Shown in pieces: positions 1 to 9,750 of a DNA stretch of 18,829 nucleotides. Origin of the DNA: Legionella longbeachae (lineage in GTDB: Bacteria; Pseudomonadota; Gammaproteobacteria; Legionellales; Legionellaceae); the NCBI GenBank assembly GCA_016191305.1, contig JACPOX010000091.1, positions 1 through 18,829 on the forward strand, in the 5' to 3' direction. The notes beneath the pieces are model-generated. The model was not told the DNA's origin and did not search any database. It saw only the letters and a program-made list of their open reading frames with translations. Numbering within the stretch: the stretch's first letter is position 1; each line of letters starts with the position of its first letter. The position numbers and the translations under genes are program-made.

Positions 1-473
1 ATACTTGGAATCATAAAAATTGATCTTGCCCCAGAGATCGCTGACAAGACCCCCATGGGTGAATAGTTGAATTTATTTTTAATATCTATCACTCTAGTAT
101 AACTGAAAAAATCTCCTGGTTTTTGAATCATTATTGGTAGTGTCACATTTTTTTTAGGTAGATCCACATACCACTCGAATCGTTTAGTGAGGATCATTCC
201 CATTGGTGAACTATTTCTTCCATAACCAAGATGTTTATTAATATCAGGAGGAATTTGGGGATCACTTAATCTAACTAGTCCCAAGTCGTGTAGAGGAATA
301 AATTGACTTATTTCATCTCCAATTATTTCTCCATATGGGAAATTAAGTTCATAAAGAGGGAAGTCTAAGCCTGGATTCAACTTATCCACAAGGTTAAAAA
401 ATTCGATATTGGCCTCTTTTATTTTTTCTTTAATCTCCTTCCAATAAACTTTCTTGGTGCCGATATGCGTCAT
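1..473 (-). CDS. Hypothetical protein, 5' part only (runs off left edge)
   Basis: The minus strand is open from an ATG at 473 to the window edge: 157 codons without a stop. An SD-like AGGA lies four bases before the ATG. The protein begins MTHIGTKKVYWKEI and has a charged N-terminal helix, then a mixed region with hydrophobic strands (for example around LPIMIQKPGDFFSY). I see no signal peptide, membrane segment or catalytic motif that I recognise. It faces away from the 59-codon ORF at 635, leaving a 160-bp AT-rich divergent spacer. The function is unknown. That it is a real gene is supported by the uninterrupted frame, the SD and the protein-like composition. Confidence 0.6.
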   Translation of the reverse strand, partial: MTHIGTKKVYWKEIKEKIKEANIEFFNLVDKLNPGLDFPLYELNFPYGEIIGDEISQFIPLHDLGLVRLSDPQIPPDINKHLGYGRNSSPMGMILTKRFEWYVDLPKKNVTLPIMIQKPGDFFSYTRVIDIKNKFNYSPMGVLSAISGARSIFMIPS

Positions 474-634: not shown

Positions 635-814
635 ATGGGAATTAAAATCAATGTGAATGAAATAATAAGTAATACGTTAAACTCATCCATACATAATATA
701 GATAGTCTTTCTAAGATTTTAGAAATTCCTAGAAAAAGGTTGTTACATACCGAGCTTCTAACTCAGGAAGACTTAAAAATATTAATAATTTTTAAACAAA
801 TATTAAAGAAATAA
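635..814 (+). CDS. Small hypothetical protein, 59 aa
   Basis: ATG at 635 with GGAG at 625-628 (6-base spacing), ending with TAA at 812-814. The product is basic and helix-rich (MGIKINVNEI... ending ILKK). The segment around residues 20-40 (NIDSLSKILEIPRKRLLHTE) has the look of a short helix-turn-helix, which would fit a small DNA-binding protein. That is only an impression; no family is recognised. It runs convergently into the repressor gene at 803-1429, and the two overlap by 12 bases at their 3' ends. The good SD is the main reason to list it. Confidence 0.45.
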   Translation: MGIKINVNEIISNTLNSSIHNIDSLSKILEIPRKRLLHTELLTQEDLKILIIFKQILKK

Positions 815-1429
815 TCTTATGGAGTCATTGCATATTCCAAGCACTGTAAATGATTCTTTATTAGGTGTAGTTATATTTTCATAATCTGGGTTTAACGCAA
901 TAAATTTGTAAAGTGGATTTTCTATATTTTTGTTATCAATCAAATACTTTCTAAACAACTTTTGTCCGGTTTTATTTATCTGAAATAATACAAAAGCACC
1001 ATCCACTATCTCTTTATTAGTTTTGAACACAACAATATCATCTTTTCTAAAAAGACTATGCATACTGTCATCAAGTAATTTCACAGCAAACAAATACTTA
1101 CTATCTAATTCCATTGGTATAGATACAGAAATTGAACAAACAGGCTTACTCTCATTTATTTCAGTAAGCTTGTGCAAAGGAATTGAAATGCAACTTAATT
1201 CAGGGGTTCTTTGAATAGAATCAACGCATAACAAATAAGCAGCGGGTACATTCAAAGCTTCTTCTAGCACTAAAATGCTTTCTAAATTCGGTAATCGTCG
1301 CCCCTGTTCCCAATGAGAAATTCTTGCGCTAGAAAAACCGGTTATTTTTGACAGCTCGATCGCGGTCATACCCTTCTTTTTCCGAGACTCGGCAATTCTT
1401 AATCCAATTTCTTTATTAATTTCGCTCAT
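803..1429 (-). CDS. Phage-type transcriptional repressor (HTH_3 plus S24/LexA-like domain)
   Basis: A 208-residue protein. Residues about 8-60 form a Cro/C1-type helix-turn-helix (IAESRKKKGMTAIELSKITG, then SSARISHWEQGRRLPN). Residues about 80-200 resemble the S24 peptidase domain of LexA and CI repressors, with the nucleophile motif DDSM at 121-123 (Ser122). The partner Lys is less clear: the matching strand reads QKLFRKYL, so Arg160 or Lys161 occupies that place. No Ala-Gly cleavage pair is obvious in the linker. It may therefore cleave itself poorly or be a ligand-type repressor. It is divergent from the panD-like/ATP-grasp operon, and the intervening DNA holds three matching palindromic sites. 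I infer that it represses that operon and itself. The ATG at 1429 has no clear SD. Confidence 0.82.
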   Translation of the reverse strand: MSEINKEIGLRIAESRKKKGMTAIELSKITGFSSARISHWEQGRRLPNLESILVLEEALNVPAAYLLCVDSIQRTPELSCISIPLHKLTEINESKPVCSISVSIPMELDSKYLFAVKLLDDSMHSLFRKDDIVVFKTNKEIVDGAFVLFQINKTGQKLFRKYLIDNKNIENPLYKFIALNPDYENITTPNKESFTVLGICNDSIRLFL

Positions 1430-1553: not shown

Positions 1554-1895
1554 ATGTTAGTAACCATGTTAAAAGCAAAAATTCATAGAGATGAAAAACT
1601 CTTGTTAGAGACAGGAATCAGAGAGAATGAAAAAGTTCAAATTGTTAATATCAATAATGGTTCGCGATTTGAGACTTATGTAATTAAAGGACGTAAAGGG
1701 AGTGGGGACATTTGTGTCAATGGTGCTGCAGCAAGATTAGTTCATGAGGGTGATAAAATAATTATTATTTGTTATTGCACTCTCGATGAGCAAAAAGCTC
1801 AGGATTATATTCCTAAAATTATTTTTATGAATGAAGATAATAGTATTCAAAGCCACTCTCATCAAGAATCATCAAAAACGTTATTTCTCAATTAA
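1554..1895 (+). CDS. PanD-like (aspartate 1-decarboxylase fold) protein lacking the processing site
   Basis: A 113-residue protein related to PanD, which decarboxylates L-aspartate to beta-alanine after self-cleaving a Gly-Ser bond to form a pyruvoyl group. The PanD landmarks are present: AKIHR near the N-terminus (the Lys that binds substrate), GSRFETY (the Arg, Thr and Tyr of the active site), the CVNGAAA strand and a following GDKIIII strand. However, about 20 residues after KIHR, which in PanD carry the YEGS cleavage site, are absent: KIHRD runs directly into EKLLLETGI. The deletion is in frame and the ORF is otherwise intact, with a good AAGGAG before the ATG. As read, it cannot form the pyruvoyl group. 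It may bind aspartate as a sensor or subunit, have another activity, or be inactive. It is the first gene of the operon behind the triple operator. Confidence 0.8.
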   Translation: MLVTMLKAKIHRDEKLLLETGIRENEKVQIVNINNGSRFETYVIKGRKGSGDICVNGAAARLVHEGDKIIIICYCTLDEQKAQDYIPKIIFMNEDNSIQSHSHQESSKTLFLN

Positions 1896-1932
1896 ATCAA
1901 TTAACGACTAGGAACATCAATAAGGGATTATT

Positions 1933-3042
1933 ATGGACAATTTATCAAATCAAAAAATTAGCCTTGTATTTGGAGGTGTATCTGCTGAGCGTGACCTCTC
2001 ATTAAGAACGTTTAACAGTATTTATAATGAGTTACAGAAGCAAACAAAATATACGTTACATTATCACAATGTTTATTACATTAAAGAAGATGGCTTGGTT
2101 ATTAAAAAACCATTTGATTTTTCTAAAGAGCCTGATTTTTACATTAAAAATCAAGGAAAATCATCTACTATACTTGAAATACTTCAGCAAATAAAAAAGA
2201 ACGATGAATATGTGTTTTCTTTACTGTATGGGTTGTATGGTGAAGATGGTCATTTTCAAGGTTTAGGAAAAGCATTAAATATTAAAAGCTCTTTTGGTTC
2301 TGTACTGTCGTGCAGTTTAAGCAAAAGTAAATACCATTGTTCTAAATATATTGAATCGAACTATTCTGAATTAGAGCCCATACCTGTTATTCCTGTTAGA
2401 GCAGTAGATATTGATGATCTAAAAGAAAGGTTAATGCCTTTTGATGGACAAGAAATTGTGGTCAAACCTAATGCATTAGGCACCAGTATGATGACCGAAC
2501 GTTTTTTACTCAACAAACATTCCATTCATGATGTTTACAATTTGATTGTTATGATATTGAAGTATGATGATATTGCTTTAGTACAAAAATACATTGCTGG
2601 CGAAGAATATTCCTGCGGTTGTATCGAGAATTTAAACAGAATTGATGCGTTGCCTTTAATGCTTGTACGTACAAAAGATAGTTTTTTTGGTCGCAGGGAA
2701 AAATTATGTAAGTTTGGGGTAAGCGAACGCATCATTCCGAATAATTATAATCCTTACACCGCCCAAATTACTAATATTTGCAAACGAATATTCACAGATT
2801 TGATGTTTGAGAATATGTTCCGACTAGATTTTATTGTGTCTGATGGCAAAATTCATTTTCTTGAAGCCAATTCATTACCGGGCTTAAGTAGCGCCAGTTT
2901 TTTTCCAAAAATGCTTCAGGAAATGAACGTTTCGATCGCCGATTTTATTCAATTAACTTATCAAAACAGCTTGAGGAGAAAAAGCAGGGAATGCCAATTT
3001 AACTATGATATGGATTGGAGGGGCTTAGCATGCACTGCATAG
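1933..3042 (+). CDS. D-Ala-D-Ala ligase-like ATP-grasp enzyme, divergent
   Basis: A 369-residue ATP-grasp ligase of the Ddl family, which joins two D-amino or hydroxy acids with ATP. Visible Ddl landmarks: FGGVSAERDLSL (Glu19), YGEDG at 102-106, VVKPNALGTS (Lys178), GEE at 223-225, RLDF (Arg297, Asp299), EANSLPG (Glu311, Asn313) and SFFP (Ser322). Aligning by eye to E. coli DdlB, several specificity positions differ: His63 is Tyr99, Ser150 is Thr184 and Tyr216 is Leu258, while Lys215 is kept as Lys257. It is therefore probably not the cell-wall Ddl, but a ligase with a different acceptor or a self-protection variant. It starts 37 bp after the PanD-like gene with an AAGGG SD, and its last 13 bases overlap the racemase gene. 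Confidence 0.85.
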   Translation: MDNLSNQKISLVFGGVSAERDLSLRTFNSIYNELQKQTKYTLHYHNVYYIKEDGLVIKKPFDFSKEPDFYIKNQGKSSTILEILQQIKKNDEYVFSLLYGLYGEDGHFQGLGKALNIKSSFGSVLSCSLSKSKYHCSKYIESNYSELEPIPVIPVRAVDIDDLKERLMPFDGQEIVVKPNALGTSMMTERFLLNKHSIHDVYNLIVMILKYDDIALVQKYIAGEEYSCGCIENLNRIDALPLMLVRTKDSFFGRREKLCKFGVSERIIPNNYNPYTAQITNICKRIFTDLMFENMFRLDFIVSDGKIHFLEANSLPGLSSASFFPKMLQEMNVSIADFIQLTYQNSLRRKSRECQFNYDMDWRGLACTA

Positions 3043-3728
3043 GATTGGTAGGTGGAGTCAGCTGGGTATCTACTATGGAATATTATAGGCGACTAAATTG
3101 TCGAATAAATCAAAAAAAAGGGAAAAATCATTCAGCAAAAATATTAATGTATAGTTTTGATTTTGAGGAAATTTTGGAATTTCAAAAAAATAAAAATGAG
3201 ATCATGGAGTTAAAAGTATTGGAAGAAAAGGTGAGATTATTAGATAAAGCGGGTTCTGATGTGATTGCAATTTGTTCCAATACCACCAATAAATTAGCAG
3301 ATCAACTTGATAGTACCCTGCATGAAAAATTAATTAATCTCATCGATGTAACTGGCGACTATTTACTTAAAAATAATGCAGTTCGAGTTGGTTTACTAGG
3401 TACCCGGTATACCATGGAGCTTGATTTTTATAAGAATAAATTGAACGAAAAAGGAGTATATGTGGTGGTTCCCGATAAGAAAGATCGGGAGCAGTTACAC
3501 CATATTATTTATGAAGAATTATGTAAAGGCCAAAAGAATGCTTATTCCAAAAAATCATTACTCAATATAATTAATAAAATGGTCTCTTTAAATGAATTAG
3601 ATGGAATCATTCTTGGGTGCACAGAGCTGCCTTTATTGGTTTCCCAATTGGATGTTATGATTCCTTTATTTGATACCATAGATATCCATATTGATGCCAT
3701 TTTAAAAAGAATAACTCAGATCAATTAA
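3030..3728 (+). CDS. Aspartate/glutamate racemase family protein
   Basis: A 232-residue cofactor-independent racemase of the Asp/Glu (RacX/YgeA) family, which interconverts L- and D-amino acids with two cysteines. Both are present: Cys82 in CSNTTN and Cys197 in GCTELP. The start motif CIGLVGGVSW and the late LFDT motif also fit. I place the start at ATG 3030, since GGAGGGG at 3017-3023 sits six bases upstream and family members begin with the IGL-GG strand; an in-frame TTG at 3015 precedes the SD and is unlikely. The gene overlaps the end of the Ddl-like gene by 13 bases, implying translational coupling and a shared pathway, probably supplying a D-amino acid to one of the ligases. The exact substrate cannot be read from sequence. 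Confidence 0.85.
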   Translation: MHCIGLVGGVSWVSTMEYYRRLNCRINQKKGKNHSAKILMYSFDFEEILEFQKNKNEIMELKVLEEKVRLLDKAGSDVIAICSNTTNKLADQLDSTLHEKLINLIDVTGDYLLKNNAVRVGLLGTRYTMELDFYKNKLNEKGVYVVVPDKKDREQLHHIIYEELCKGQKNAYSKKSLLNIINKMVSLNELDGIILGCTELPLLVSQLDVMIPLFDTIDIHIDAILKRITQIN

Positions 3729-3737
3729 GGAGTCCCC

Positions 3738-4961
3738 ATGAATATTGATAGCCCTTATTCTGGGATCCTATGGTGCTTACTTGCTGGAGTGCTTTGCGTC
3801 AATGCAGCGCACTTTATTAGTATTCCCTTTTTAAGTCTGTATCTTGTGAATCACACACATTGCTCTCTATTGCTAAGTGGATTTGTCCTAGGAATTGCCC
3901 CGTTCTTTTCTATAGTGGGTGGGGTTGTTGGAGGACAATTATCCGATCGATACGATCGTTTAGTTATTTTGTATCTCTCGATATTTGCCACGGCATTGAT
4001 TCTTATTTTATTTTATGGTGTTTTTAATCTCCAAAATAACCCAATACAATGGGGATTACTTATTCTCTTAAATGCCTTATTTGGTTTATTCACTTCCTTT
4101 TTTCAGCCTTCCGTGATGGCCTTATTGACTGATTTAGTTGCCCAATCCTATCGAGAACAGGTGTTTCATTTTCGTTATGCCGCGATAAACATCGGAGCGG
4201 TCATTGGTCCATTACTTGGTGTTTTTTTAGGAATTACTTTATCGCCGAGGGCATTTCTTATAGGGGGATTAATTTATTTGGGGTATGGATGTTTTTTGTA
4301 TTTTGTTTTAAAAACACACAGGGTAACTCGGGTGTACTCTCTTCAAGAGTCTGTCTCTATTTTAGATTCAGTGAATGTCGTTTTTACCAATAAAAGATTA
4401 TTTAATTTTATTCTGTTTCATATCGTTTTTGCGATTTGTTATGCACAAATTACATCTACTTTAGCCTACTATATTGCTGATAATGTAGCTAATAGTGCAC
4501 GTGTTTATTCATTACTGATTTCTTTAAATGCGCTATTTGTATTATTAGGGCAAGCACCTATCTATTTTTTATGTAAAAACCAGGCAAAAAAGAGAGTCAT
4601 TTTTTATGGCTGTTTTCTTTTTTGTTTGGGATGTTTTGGTTTTGCCTACTCTGGGAAAGAGGCCATTTATTTTTATAACTCCATGCTACTTATTACCTTA
4701 GGTGAATTATTGATATTTCCATTTGCATCAGGATTTATCGATGATATGGCCCCAGCGCATCTTAAAGGTACTTATTTTGGTGCCCTCACTTTTAGGGAAT
4801 TAGGTTTAGGTTTTGGGCCTATTTTAGGTACCACAATTCTTCATGCTTTTGGTGGTAAGGTTCTTTTTTTATTCATAGGCTTATTGGCGCTGTGCTCCTA
4901 TTATTTTATGGTACGTTGTGAGCGCGCTCAATATGTCTTGTCCTACAATGTCACTAGATAA
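3738..4961 (+). CDS. MFS transporter (12 TM), probable product exporter
   Basis: A 407-residue hydrophobic protein with about 12 membrane segments. The MFS motif A appears between TM2 and TM3 as GGQLSDRYDRLVI, and a second-half counterpart is weak. A glycine-rich helix with a GPLLGVFLG stretch near residues 158-166 resembles the motif of drug/proton antiporters. The SD AAGGAG lies seven bases before the ATG, nine bases after the racemase stop. Because it sits between the racemase and a peptide-ligase-type gene, export of the operon's product (self-protection) is the likely role, as with MFS pumps in other small peptide antibiotic clusters such as BacE in bacilysin. The substrate is inferred only. 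Confidence 0.85.
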   Translation: MNIDSPYSGILWCLLAGVLCVNAAHFISIPFLSLYLVNHTHCSLLLSGFVLGIAPFFSIVGGVVGGQLSDRYDRLVILYLSIFATALILILFYGVFNLQNNPIQWGLLILLNALFGLFTSFFQPSVMALLTDLVAQSYREQVFHFRYAAINIGAVIGPLLGVFLGITLSPRAFLIGGLIYLGYGCFLYFVLKTHRVTRVYSLQESVSILDSVNVVFTNKRLFNFILFHIVFAICYAQITSTLAYYIADNVANSARVYSLLISLNALFVLLGQAPIYFLCKNQAKKRVIFYGCFLFCLGCFGFAYSGKEAIYFYNSMLLITLGELLIFPFASGFIDDMAPAHLKGTYFGALTFRELGLGFGPILGTTILHAFGGKVLFLFIGLLALCSYYFMVRCERAQYVLSYNVTR

Positions 4962-4973
4962 GAGAGTTTAAAA

Positions 4974-6191
4974 ATGAGTCAAGCTATTTTATTTGTTAAT
5001 GTTCCAGATAAGCATCATTTGGAAAAAATGACAGCGGCACAAAAATTGGGGGTAAAGGTTTTTCTCGTCGCTCCAGTTTTTCAAGATTGGGTCAAGGGGA
5101 TTGTTAATCATTTTATACAAGCAGATACAACTAACTTTTCCGAAACCTTATCCATTCTTCGTAGCGCTTACCAAGATACTCCTTTTGATGGAGTTATCAC
5201 TCTATTAGATAAGAGTGTGGAATTAGTAGCAGCCATTGCACAAGAATTTAATCTTCCTGGAAGTACCCTAAAAGCTGCCACCACTGTAAAGCATAAATAT
5301 AAAATGCGTGAAGCGTTAAGGGAATATGGTATTCCGCATCCCAAATTTCAATTAGTCAAAACATTAAAAAACTTACAGGATGCTGCGCTCTATATTGGCT
5401 TTCCTTTTATTTTTAAGCCAGTTGCCGCATCAACCAGTGCTGCTGTTTTTAAAATAGACTCGATGGAGGAGCTCGAGAAGGCTTTCCATTTAATGGCTAC
5501 TTGTGAACGCCCCCCCTTTTGGCTTTATCCTGATGAATATCTTGCTGAAGAATTTATGAACGGCCAAGAAATTAGTGTTGAAGGAGTCATTAATCGTAAG
5601 CAAATCCATTTTGCGGGGATTACTAATAAATCAGTATCAAGCCCTGGTTTTACTGAGTGGATGCATTGCTTCCCCACTTATTTTGAGCCAGAGGTATGCT
5701 CCAAAATTTATGAGCTTGTGGCACGAGCCATTGAGGCAGTAAAGATAAATGATTGTGCTTTTCACGTGGAAGTGATGATGACGGCAGAAGGCCCTAAAAT
5801 TGTAGAAATCAATTCACGCCTGGCAGGCGCTTTCATTTCAAGTCATCTTGTACCAATGGCAACCGGAATTGATTTAGCTTGTGCCAGTATTCAAACCGCC
5901 TTGGGAGAACCCATCAAGTTAAAATCATCCCAGCAATTATATGCTTGTGAACGTAATGTATTTGCTAAAAAAAATGGAACTATTATCGCTTGGAAGCATA
6001 TTGATGGAATATTAGATCAACCCGGAGTTAAAGATTTTAAAATATTGCGATCTGTGGGTGACTATGTCAAGGTGCCTCCTGAGGGATACGATAATCTTTT
6101 ATGTGCTGTAATCACTGTGGGAGGTACATTTAATCAAGCTCAGGAGGTAGCAAAAAAGGCGTTAAACAGTATTGAATGTGTTATTGAGTAG
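4974..6191 (+). CDS. ATP-grasp amino-acid/peptide ligase-like protein
   Basis: A 405-residue protein with a pre-ATP-grasp Rossmann-like domain (about 1-110), an ATP-grasp domain (about 111-310) and a C-terminal cap. ATP-grasp signs are FPFIFKP (Lys148), the EEFMNGQEISVEG segment (192-204), FHVEVMM (263-269) and EINSRLAG (Glu278, Asn280, Arg282), which supply the metal and phosphate contacts. The order and length fit L-amino-acid ligases of the BacD type, which make dipeptides through an acyl-phosphate; related folds such as carbamoyl phosphate synthase-type and PurK-type enzymes are less likely in this context. It starts 12 bases after the MFS stop, as the last gene of the operon. Its substrates may include the racemase product, but no residue tells which. 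Confidence 0.82.
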   Translation: MSQAILFVNVPDKHHLEKMTAAQKLGVKVFLVAPVFQDWVKGIVNHFIQADTTNFSETLSILRSAYQDTPFDGVITLLDKSVELVAAIAQEFNLPGSTLKAATTVKHKYKMREALREYGIPHPKFQLVKTLKNLQDAALYIGFPFIFKPVAASTSAAVFKIDSMEELEKAFHLMATCERPPFWLYPDEYLAEEFMNGQEISVEGVINRKQIHFAGITNKSVSSPGFTEWMHCFPTYFEPEVCSKIYELVARAIEAVKINDCAFHVEVMMTAEGPKIVEINSRLAGAFISSHLVPMATGIDLACASIQTALGEPIKLKSSQQLYACERNVFAKKNGTIIAWKHIDGILDQPGVKDFKILRSVGDYVKVPPEGYDNLLCAVITVGGTFNQAQEVAKKALNSIECVIE

Positions 6192-6696: not shown

Positions 6697-7398
6697 TCAT
6701 ATCGGAAAATCCCCAATAACATCATTATACTTATCTTGTGCATTAGCCAAGCTTAATTTGGAGTATATTTCAAGAGAGTCTCTTTTAGCATGGCCTGAAT
6801 AAGGTTGAATAAAGGCGTCATCAATATTTTGTTTCTTAAGCCAAGTAAATAAAAAATGTCTTAGTTTGTGAGGCGATATGGATCGCTCAATACCTGCAAG
6901 TTTAGTATATCGCATAAGAATTTTTCTAATTCCACGATCGGTATAATGACGTCGAAAGCCTGATTCAAATAAAAACATCCTGTTTTCATTTTTATATTGT
7001 TTTAAATGAAGTGCTAATGTTTCTTTAAATGCCGGTGAAAAGGGTACAATTCTATCTTTTTTTCCTTTACCCTGATTTATTTTTATCCGACAATTGGTTA
7101 AATCAATGTCGCATATCTGTATATTAATTAATTCACTGACCCTTATCCCTGTATAAAGTAAAACTTTAACAATAAGCATAGGTATAATATCGTGAGATTC
7201 CCAAACAGTTTTGTAAAAGAGTCTAATTTCATCTTCAGTTGGAACATAGGGTAGGCGTTTGGGTGTTGTTGTTACTTCAATATTCAGATTTTCCCTCACA
7301 AATCTGAATACATCGCGAAGGTAATCATAGTTAGGATTTTGTGTCTTAAGTAGACTTGAAACTTTTTGAGCCATTTTTTTAGCTGATATTTGTTCCAT
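6697..7398 (-). CDS. Tyrosine recombinase (TnpI-like integrase/resolvase)
   Basis: A 233-residue site-specific recombinase. The catalytic domain is complete: Arg86 in TGIRVSEL, Lys111/113 in the beta-hairpin [11 protein letters not shown], His177 and Arg180 in HKLRH, His203 in SGHAKRDS and the nucleophile Tyr212 in EIYSKLS. The N-terminal DNA-binding part is short (about 50 residues), compared with about 100 in XerC/D-type enzymes. Its ATG shares a base with the stop of the upstream transposase remnant (TAATG), so the two were co-translated. The likely original role is resolving transposition cointegrates, as TnpI does in Tn4430. It may still be active, because the frame and all catalytic residues are intact. 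Confidence 0.87.
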
Positions 7399-8042
7399 TA
7401 TGCAGCTACCTTATAATCAAGGTGAGGTAGTCTTGTTGATAAATCCAATAAAAATAAACCATACGGATTAACATGTTCATAAATAAGGGCTGTTAATGCT
7501 CGTTTATCTTCTTTTGTCAGTTGATCTTTTAATCCAAGCTCTTCGATAATTTGCTGAATCATTAACGTATTGATATAAACCATAGATAGCTGTAAAAGAT
7601 GTAAAGACATAACAGATAATGTTTGCGCCTTTTCATGGTTAGATGAAATTTCCCCAGCACGACCATAAAAAATGAACTTGCTAACGCCATTCCAAAGCTC
7701 AACTACATTTAATCCTTCTTGAATTTCTTGCCTGATAGATTCGTACATTAAATAATTACACATGAATATAGTTTTTAGAACTTTTCCTAGAGGTAAAGAC
7801 AAATCATCAAAATATTTCTCTTTATTCTCTTCAAAATTATTAGGCAAATCCTCATCTGGGTTTGGATGTTTGAAAGATCCTTCAATCCATATTTCACGGC
7901 ATCTAATACGATCTGCAAGTTTTTTTAAAACATTGACTTCATAACAAATTCGTATAATTTTTCCGGTATGGGCATCAACAATACGTTTTTGCCAACTTAT
8001 TTCTTCTGAGGTTAAATCCACAGCATCCATCGTTATCATCAT
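7398..8042 (-). pseudogene. tnpA: Tn3-family transposase remnant with internal deletion
   Basis: This 214-residue ORF joins two separate parts of a Tn3-family transposase (normally about 950-1000 residues). Residues about 15-85 match the segment before the third catalytic region (YEVNVLKKLADRIRCREIW, then NPDEDLPNNFEENKEKY). Residues about 86-205 match the extreme C-terminus (GKVLKTIFMCNYL, ISSNHEKAQTLSVMSLHLL, YEHVNPYGLFLLDL). The join is in frame near residue 85. The N-terminal domain and the DDE acidic residues are missing, so it cannot catalyse transposition. It could still be translated, and its stop overlaps the recombinase start, so it may now serve only as a translation leader for that gene. 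Several ATGs lie close together at the 5' end (8042, 8030). Confidence 0.78.
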
Positions 8043-8246: not shown

Positions 8247-9053
8247 ATGAAAAAAGGATGTCTATCGTTTTTTTTAATCATTTGTGCTGCCAATGCGTGG
8301 GCAAAGCATCATATTATTGATTTAACAGTAGCTTATGATACCTTTAATTTTACTGGATATCCTTCCAGAGCAATTACTGTTAATCATCAGATCCCAGCGC
8401 CAACGCTTCGATTTAAAGAAGGGGATGAGGTAACGATAAACGTTCATAATAACTTAGATAAAGAAGCTGCTATTCATTGGCATGGCATTATTCTTCCTTG
8501 GCAAATGGATGGCGTCATGAATATCACGCAAAAGGGAATTCCTCCAGGAGCTACTTTTCAATATCATTATACCCTACATCAATCCGGTACTTATTGGTAT
8601 CATTCACATGCAGGTCTTCAGGAACAAGAAGGTTTATATGGCGCTTACATCATCGACCCGAAATCTTCACCTCCTTTTAAATACAATAAAGACTTTGAAG
8701 TTGTATTATCAGACTGGAAAAATACAAAAGCCGATCACATCCAAGCTAACTTGAAAAAAACAGGGGAATATTATGGTGCAAGGTTTCCTTTGCAACCATC
8801 ACTTTTAAATTTTATTCAAAGTTATAGTAAAGCCTCGAACAAAGAGCGTAAGAAATTATGGATGGACTATAAAATGATGCAAACCATGCGAATGGGCATC
8901 TTCGATTTAAGCGACATTGCTTATGATATTTTTTTAATGAACGGTCATCCAACTTCTCGTCCATGGACCAAGCAGGTTAATATGCTTCTATTATTGAAGT
9001 TGCCAAAGGCAAAAAAAACCAAAAAATATTGTCAAACAAACACCTTACTATAA
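8247..9053 (+). pseudogene. copA: CopA-type multicopper oxidase, C-terminally truncated
   Basis: A 268-residue ORF equal to the N-terminal part of CopA, the periplasmic multicopper oxidase of copper resistance (usually about 600 residues). A signal peptide ends near AWA (residue 19). The first cupredoxin domain carries two of the copper-ligand motifs, HWHG at 77-80 and HSHAG at 119-123. The sequence follows CopA to about residue 240 (MNGHPTSRPW), then changes to a Lys-rich, low-complexity tail and stops. The second and third domains, with the remaining trinuclear ligands and the type 1 copper site, are lost, so oxidase activity is not expected. The SD AAGGA lies upstream of ATG 8247. The copB remnant follows immediately, so one deletion probably removed both inner ends. 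Confidence 0.82.
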
Positions 9054-9069
9054 TCGCCCAATTGTTCGA

Positions 9070-9750
9070 ATGGATGAACTACGTCCTATTTCGTTGCCAA
9101 TGGTGGAGCATCCCATTCACACACCAAATAAGTTTTTTTCGGCATCCTTTATAGAATTTGGCGGTGATTTTTCCAAAAATCGACAGACACTGACTTATTA
9201 TGGATTATATGGTCCTGATTTTAATAAATTACAACTCTTTATTAATGATGCTGAAATGGAAAAAGGTACTATTTCTAATGCAGATATTGATATTTTTTAT
9301 TGGCGGCAAATCAGCCAGTTCTGGATGATTAAAGGTGGTGCTAATTATTTTTATCGTCCATCAAAAAAACCTTACTGGCAGCCTGGTATCGGTTTTGAAG
9401 GGCTCATGTATTATTTTATTACTAATAACTCCAGGTTTTATTATCACAAAGACAGTCTGAAAGCGGATGTTGAATTTGGCCGTAATACTCAGTTAACCAA
9501 TAATTTATTTCTAGGCACTCTTTTTAGAGTGATTGCTGCAACGAAAACGGTTACGGAAGATGAGATTGGCAGTGGTCTTAATGAGACTCAATATGTGGTT
9601 CGACCCAACTACAGACTTACCCCGGGCATTTCTGCTTTTATGGAATATGAACACACCAAATACCATAGAACTTTAAAAAGTATCAGACGGAGAATTGGAG
9701 AGCCACTAGTCGAAAATTCCCTTTTTTTTGGCTTAAGTATTATTATTTAA
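9070..9750 (+). CDS. copB: CopB-type outer-membrane copper resistance protein, N-terminus lost
   Basis: A 226-residue frame matching the beta-barrel part of CopB (PF05275 type). It shows alternating aromatic-hydrophobic strands, ADIDIFYWRQISQFWMIKGG, the YWQPGIGFEG strand, IGSGLNETQYVVRPNYR and a C-terminal strand ending LSIII. The matching frame appears to continue a few codons upstream of ATG 9070 (about 9043), and no SD precedes the ATG. The signal peptide is absent. CopB normally binds or exports copper at the outer membrane next to CopA. Without a signal it cannot reach that place, so this is probably a broken gene, although its frame remains open. Confidence 0.78.
   Translation: MDELRPISLPMVEHPIHTPNKFFSASFIEFGGDFSKNRQTLTYYGLYGPDFNKLQLFINDAEMEKGTISNADIDIFYWRQISQFWMIKGGANYFYRPSKKPYWQPGIGFEGLMYYFITNNSRFYYHKDSLKADVEFGRNTQLTNNLFLGTLFRVIAATKTVTEDEIGSGLNETQYVVRPNYRLTPGISAFMEYEHTKYHRTLKSIRRRIGEPLVENSLFFGLSIII

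Follow-up and report, generated by a model that had tools for sequence, protein, structure and literature searches.

A Conserved Five-Gene Legionella Operon with Two ATP-Grasp Ligases, a Candidate Pathway for a Small Exported Peptide

Gene Content of the Operon

The window analyzed here, an 18,829-nucleotide (nt) stretch forming one contig (JACPOX010000091.1) of a draft Legionella longbeachae genome (GCA_016191305.1; 2.48 Mb in 323 contigs, 82% complete), contains a compact five-gene operon that may encode a dedicated peptide pathway. The families that a first-pass annotation had given these genes agree with open reading frames (ORFs) and domain scans:

1554–1895, plus strand: PanD-like protein, 113 amino acids (aa), without the self-processing site (Pfam, NCBIfam, alignment with relatives)
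1933–3042, plus strand: Ddl-like ATP-grasp ligase, diverged from housekeeping Ddl (Pfam, NCBIfam, alignments)
3030–3728, plus strand: Asp/Glu racemase family protein, both cysteines present (NCBIfam, structure matches, alignment)
3738–4961, plus strand: major facilitator superfamily (MFS) transporter, presumed exporter (Pfam/NCBIfam)
4974–6191, plus strand: L-amino-acid ligase (LAL), ATP-grasp with LAL_C2 (Pfam, NCBIfam, structure matches)

The operon had been described as tightly packed and overlapping. It is compact; overlap is confined to ddl and the racemase gene (13 nt), and the other pairs are spaced, panD and ddl by 37 nt and the last two by 9 and 12 nt.

The PanD-like protein passes the score of its family (Asp_decarbox, 120 bits; TIGR00223, 116 bits against a cut-off of 106). 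Both Dala_Dala_lig domains of the Ddl-like ligase exceed the Pfam cut-offs, and its score against the true-Ddl family TIGR01205 is 130 bits, below the cut-off of 246. The racemase scores 186 bits against TIGR00035 (cut-off 93), closely matches solved Asp/Glu racemases and has in all seven sequences the two cysteines that we take to be catalytic. The MFS protein (MFS_1, 119 bits) is a putative exporter of the kind expected in a bacilysin-type cluster. In the LAL, ATP-grasp_4 and LAL_C2 are over cut-off; its closest solved structures are L-amino acid ligase BL00235 (E = 3.8e-29) and then BacD (E = 7e-18), and it reaches 67 of 850 bits, below cut-off, against the BacD equivalog.

Distribution and Conservation

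The order panD, ddl-like, Asp/Glu racemase, MFS, LAL is found in eight of 45 genomes of the genus, the source genome included, and is identical in all seven relatives, in one of which (G135) the operon is split across two contig ends. Carriers known by name are Legionella steigerwaltii, L. steelei, and Legionella sp. PATHC038. Compared with six of the seven relatives (the split copy was left out), the five genes have proportions of synonymous difference (pS) of 0.66–0.90, near saturation, and of nonsynonymous difference (pN) of 0.09–0.30; ORF ends were taken without the stop codon, so several relatives' alignment rows fall short of the last residue. Judged from these alignments, all five genes are under purifying selection. 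Because the same five genes recur in the same order in seven further genomes, and because of the contrast between pS and pN, their gathering is more than chance, and the expectation that the five families would be found together in other genomes was borne out.

The operon is close to genus-specific in all searches made. A search of 140 family genomes with the Ddl-like protein gives eight strong matches (E = 2.7e-160 or better), all in the same genus as the window; seven further matches (24%–29% identity) are distant Ddl relatives in other genera. Eight strong LAL matches in the 45 genus genomes fall in the same eight genomes. With the Ddl-like family alignment as query, eight of 143 genomes of the order were matched at E = 1e-60 or better, again all in this genus, and among 369 genomes of the class no match other than the source genome itself was found at E = 1e-45 or better. 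In a collection of 5.8 billion proteins, E = 1e-25 is reached by 25, the window's own included; names recorded for them are L. bozemanae, L. anisa, L. waltersii, and PATHC038, most rows being unnamed, and the six most distant (35%–47% identity) have no source organism recorded.

An operon belonging to a plasmid or phage is not supported: three records of a plasmid collection (Priestia, Listeria) match about 150 nt of panD only, and CL5, a protein family encoded beside the operon and described below, matches none of 50,697 phage records. Relatives of the Ddl-like protein (28%–34% identity) occur on eight rhizobial or Paraburkholderia plasmids; the five-gene operon was not there in the two such regions inspected (L119 and L120). 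On the Paraburkholderia phymatum megaplasmid pBPHY02 (L119:9995–17832) the relative (34% identity) is accompanied by a MATE pump and a large AMP-binding protein, and in L120 it adjoins a ParA gene. Within the genus, LAL remnants corresponding to the C-terminal part (about 50%–55% identity) at L047:4709–5026 and in L031 (G109) hint at lost cassette copies.

Distinction from Housekeeping Ddl and PanD

That the operon genes are not housekeeping copies, as the first-pass reading required, holds for both families in question. At a threshold of E = 1e-15, the Ddl-domain matches number exactly two in every carrier (8/8), a typical Ddl of 218–228 bits and the operon protein of 66–81 bits. Each of the seven relatives has two full-length PanDs, and in a tree the operon PanDs group with Bacillota-type sequences and separately from 23 Legionella housekeeping PanDs (47%–54% identical to an operon PanD); the outside rows of this tree were chosen by similarity to the window, the branch of one housekeeping row (L065) is very long, and row P0168, labelled "other", equals the L046 operon copy. 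Housekeeping genes that are adjacent by accident are ruled out by the additional typical Ddl in 8/8 carriers and the additional intact PanD in 7/8.

In the Ddl-like family the residues aligned to the ATP/Mg site are kept. Two acceptor-side positions, presumably Ser150 and Tyr216 of DdlB, are Thr and Leu in 12 of 18 rows and Ala and His in the other six; because they differ from the usual residues, a ligase with another acceptor appears more likely than a spare Ddl. On the same assumed numbering, the earlier suggestion that the Ddl-like enzyme could serve self-protection becomes less likely.

The Self-Cleavage Site of PanD

The window PanD lacks 16 residues (13–28 of its relatives), an in-frame 48-nt gap covering the region of the Gly-Ser self-cleavage bond. 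This self-processing site, the source of the pyruvoyl group, is present in 7/7 relatives and absent here; because of the missing residues, the alignment to the Pfam profile runs only from position 29 onward. The next 22 rows of a protein search (64%–77% identity) are 127–151 aa long against 113 aa in the window, and the site is present in the four inspected (P0147, P0148, P0159, and P0168). The source genome has a single further PanD match, at about 394–501 of L021 (G000:C307); it is a fragment covering profile positions 2–31 and precedes a gene that looks by eye like tatC. The genome has kept panC and so should need beta-alanine. Given the missing site and the fragmentary second panD, the PanD of this copy probably cannot self-process, which would leave the operon copy impaired at its first step; alternatively, this copy may depend on beta-alanine from another source.

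It comes close to an even chance that the operon of the source genome is a decaying relic that worked in an ancestor, with the loss in PanD as its first step of decay. The absence of 16 codons with the self-cleavage site would fit such decay, as would the transposase and recombinase genes that adjoin the operon; against it, the remaining four genes have uninterrupted frames, what is left of PanD is better conserved (pN 0.09–0.19) than any of the other four proteins, and the loss would carry little weight if beta-alanine were available.

Upstream Region and Flanking Genes

Three features lie to the left of panD:

803–1429, minus strand: HTH-S24 repressor-like gene (HTH_3 and Peptidase_S24; Pfam)
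635–814, plus strand: small 59-aa ORF that overlaps the S24 gene at its end and may not itself be a gene (ORF list)
1455–1470, 1472–1487, and 1502–1517, no strand assigned: three operator-like pseudo-palindromes between the S24 gene and panD (motif search)

The S24 gene is the adjoining phage-type repressor of the first-pass annotation. At E = 1e-10 the relatives' loci contain no match to it, and it was not seen between CL5 and panD there; ORFs of its family occur near CL5 in ten of 48 stretches. The operator-like motif has six matches at no more than two mismatches (three sites on both strands), compared with a shuffle mean of 1.02, and none of 200 shuffles reaches six; derived from the sites themselves, the motif would support their clustering rather than a function. 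A promoter-like site (1445–1473) overlaps the pseudo-palindromes, two others score equally, and such sites are no commoner than in shuffles (21 versus 20.9). The S24 repressor probably controls the operon in the source genome.

Just to the right of the operon (6697–8042) a mobile element has left remains, namely a 233-aa XerA-like tyrosine recombinase and a Tn3 transposase of which the C-terminal end is present. A copper-resistance pair follows (8247–9750), comprising a short and possibly shortened multicopper oxidase, of which the first domain alone is clearly matched, and CopB.

CL5 and Neighboring Cassettes

At the left end of the window lies part of a further gene:

3–473, minus strand: CL5 family protein, first 157 residues, the gene being cut where window and contig end on the left (E = 1.7e-37, 40% identity to the L043 copy)

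Neither Pfam, up to E = 0.1, nor NCBIfam has a match for this piece. It belongs to CL5, a large family without a model in either collection, which is encoded beside the operon in seven of eight carriers. Neither this gene nor the gap in PanD figured in the first-pass annotation. Neighborhoods were counted in the 48 CL5-containing stretches of the 50 used (L046 and L050 hold none); 40 of these (L122–L161) were picked from a longer list of CL5 matches rather than at random. Within 7 kb of CL5, the counts are 37 for TP_methylase, 24 for MFS (the operon's own pump included), 20 for PTR2 transporters, and 18 for ATP-grasp ligases. Thirteen of the 21 LAL matches in the genus search lie within 10 kb of a CL5 match and eight have none nearby; simple arithmetic (about two CL5 genes per genome of about 3.7 Mb) gives an expectation of about 1%, for loci that are interrelated and events that are not independent. 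Distant CL5 genes are carried by eight Legionella plasmids; in one, from L. israelensis (NZ_CP041669.1; L121:10001–13549), CL5, a methyltransferase, a small ORF, and an MFS gene lie beside conjugation genes with no ATP-grasp cassette.

Other ATP-grasp cassettes beside CL5 were characterized with Pfam (L124, L133, part of L136, and L156) and NCBIfam (parts of L136, L124, and L158), and their sister loci were assigned by BLAST clustering. One (L124–L126) encodes a TauD-like oxygenase, a flavin reductase, an Asp/Glu racemase, a LAL, and an MFS protein; at L124:9291–15422, as in L125 and L126, the oxygenase is clavaminate-synthase-like and an unknown 452-aa protein is also present. A second (L133–L135) contains a class-II 3-deoxy-D-arabino-heptulosonate 7-phosphate (DAHP) synthase, a haem-oxygenase-like enzyme, a LAL, a hydrolase, and an exporter. 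A third (L136:490–8310), beside both CL5 and a borosin-type methyltransferase, has a DAHP synthase, a prephenate-dehydratase-like and a cupin-like protein, two short-chain dehydrogenases/reductases (one matching BacC at E = 2.5e-62, below the BacC cut-off), an exporter, and a LAL. In the fourth (L156–L160), YcaO, TfuA, and ThiF accompany an ATP-grasp-like protein and a small protein whose sequence ends in GG; at L156:1067–7310 and L158:7241–13148 no methyltransferase is within reach. The five-gene operon is one of several ATP-grasp cassettes found beside CL5 in Legionella.

At somewhat less than even odds, this nearness reflects a shared landing site for mobile cassettes rather than joint function. 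The same operon (Ddl-like proteins 88%–97% identical) stands beside CL5 alleles only 29%–37% identical in L043, L045, and L047, integrase, csrA-like, and tra-like genes recur near CL5, and L046 has the operon in a stretch that holds no CL5, all as expected of a landing site. Joint function is favored instead by same-strand overlaps between CL5 and the ATP-grasp ORF (40 nt in L158 and L160, 7 nt in L159) and by the short distance, about 5.5 kb at most, between CL5 and the ATP-grasp ligases of several kinds of cassette.

The TP_methylase next to CL5 resembles the borosin N-methyltransferases. The L043 protein matches SonM at E = 1.4e-44, and its predicted fold retrieves borosin enzymes only among the 50 best matches listed. 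Four SonM residues (Y58, R67, Y71, and Y93) that were probed by mutation, according to the SonM report (PMC8429565), are invariant in 17/17 aligned relatives of the methyltransferase. A small ORF lies beside 32 of 38 methyltransferase genes, compared with 50 of 448 other ORFs of at least 200 aa; six methyltransferase genes have none by the same rule. Methyltransferase and small variable ORF directly adjoin at L043:4111–5093, L124:5399–6396, L150:5819–6767, and similar sites, in islands with CL5 and a transporter, and in L150, L151, and L155 the small ORFs contain repeats of a short SNKIV-type motif, a feature shared with multi-core precursors. In the literature collection searched, "borosin" and "Legionella" do not occur together in any paper. 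The methyltransferase was not found in the source genome (82% complete, in a search run without a positive control), and the operon copies of L046 and L048 have none beside them, so the partnership with the operon is not obligatory.

A broader picture, which we regard as unlikely in its full form, would have CL5 mark a new class of modular Legionella islands, as one protein with a cyclic-nucleotide-binding-like core that serves peptide makers of unrelated chemistry. These would be interchangeable ATP-grasp cassettes on the one hand and, on the other, borosin-type N-methyltransferases together with small ORFs for their precursors. Among the cassettes would be the panD-ddl-racemase-LAL operon, making a beta-alanine/D-amino-acid peptide that is possibly joined to an N-methylated ribosomal peptide.

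Proposed Pathway

We favor, at a probability of roughly 60%, a dedicated Legionella ATP-grasp operon that has moved between genomes and serves the synthesis of a small exported peptide. This reading rests on the fixed order of the five genes, purifying selection, the distinctness of Ddl and PanD from their housekeeping counterparts, and the residues for racemization and ATP-grasp chemistry. In relatives with an intact copy, PanD would convert aspartate to beta-alanine, and a D-amino acid (D-Asp or D-Glu, in all probability) would come from the racemase. The Ddl-like enzyme may then join this D-residue to an acceptor other than D-Ala, the LAL may form a second amide bond, and the MFS pump would export the resulting di- or tripeptide.

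Several points weigh against this proposal. Substrate specificity cannot be read from protein sequence; the Ddl-like ligase and the LAL score far under the NCBIfam equivalog cut-offs, so that their substrates may differ much from those of the reference enzymes. In the copy studied here the PanD step appears to be missing. Moreover, L046 has the operon without CL5, and both L046 and L048 have it without the methyltransferase.

Two further explanations fare poorly. In one, the Ddl-like ligase and the racemase would make an altered peptidoglycan precursor or terminus in a cell-wall or self-protection module, with the other genes as accessories; the kinship of the Ddl-like family with D-Ala-D-Ala and Van ligases and the supply of cell walls by racemases speak for it, and it is improbable in view of the typical Ddl in 8/8 carriers, the Thr/Ala and Leu/His at the two presumed acceptor-side positions, and the lack of a place for PanD, LAL, and the pump. 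An assembly or consensus error as the source of the PanD gap, conceivable in a draft of 323 contigs whose second panD is also damaged though panC is kept (an unusual state for a living cell that does not take up beta-alanine), is equally improbable because the gap is clean, in-frame, and flanked by no repeat that is obvious to the eye.

If the preferred reading is right, the operon encodes an apparently undescribed ATP-grasp peptide pathway, so far found only in Legionella, a genus whose small-molecule chemistry has been little explored. Through CL5, a recurrent uncharacterized family, borosin-type methyltransferases are linked to several natural-product cassettes, including a bacilysin-like one; should CL5 have a common role, it would offer a handle for finding many more such pathways.

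Comparison with Known Systems

The PanD and Ddl of the operon belong to the same protein families as the housekeeping enzymes; they differ in that the operon PanD is of a separate clade and here lacks the processing site, and the Ddl-like protein has a far lower score. The likeness to split borosins (SonM/SonA of Shewanella, as described in PMC8429565), a stand-alone N-methyltransferase with the four SonM residues and an adjoining small ORF, belongs to the islands next to CL5 and not to the five-gene operon; the small ORFs are candidate precursors.

D-cycloserine (dcs) clusters bring together a racemase, a Ddl homolog, an ATP-grasp ligase, and a transporter, and are not known to include PanD or a LAL. 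By family, the four former components would be common to both; the other dcs enzymes appear to have no counterpart among the scanned window proteins.

With bacilysin (bac) clusters the operon shares an ATP-grasp LAL and a dedicated exporter in a compact group. The part-likeness to bacilysin logic noted in the first-pass annotation gains from the bacilysin-like cluster in a comparable setting beside CL5 in the genus (L136), a gene group that resembles the bacilysin island described for L. pneumophila Alcoy; that island, PR5, also holds an S24-like peptidase (PMC2859405). Because none of the anticapsin genes bacA, bacB, and bacC was found among the 18 window proteins scanned with Pfam, the operon is, by its gene content, not a bacilysin cluster: it has PanD, an Asp/Glu racemase, and a Ddl-like second ligase in place of BacA, BacB, and BacC. 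It is best read as bacilysin-like logic carried out with a different gene set.

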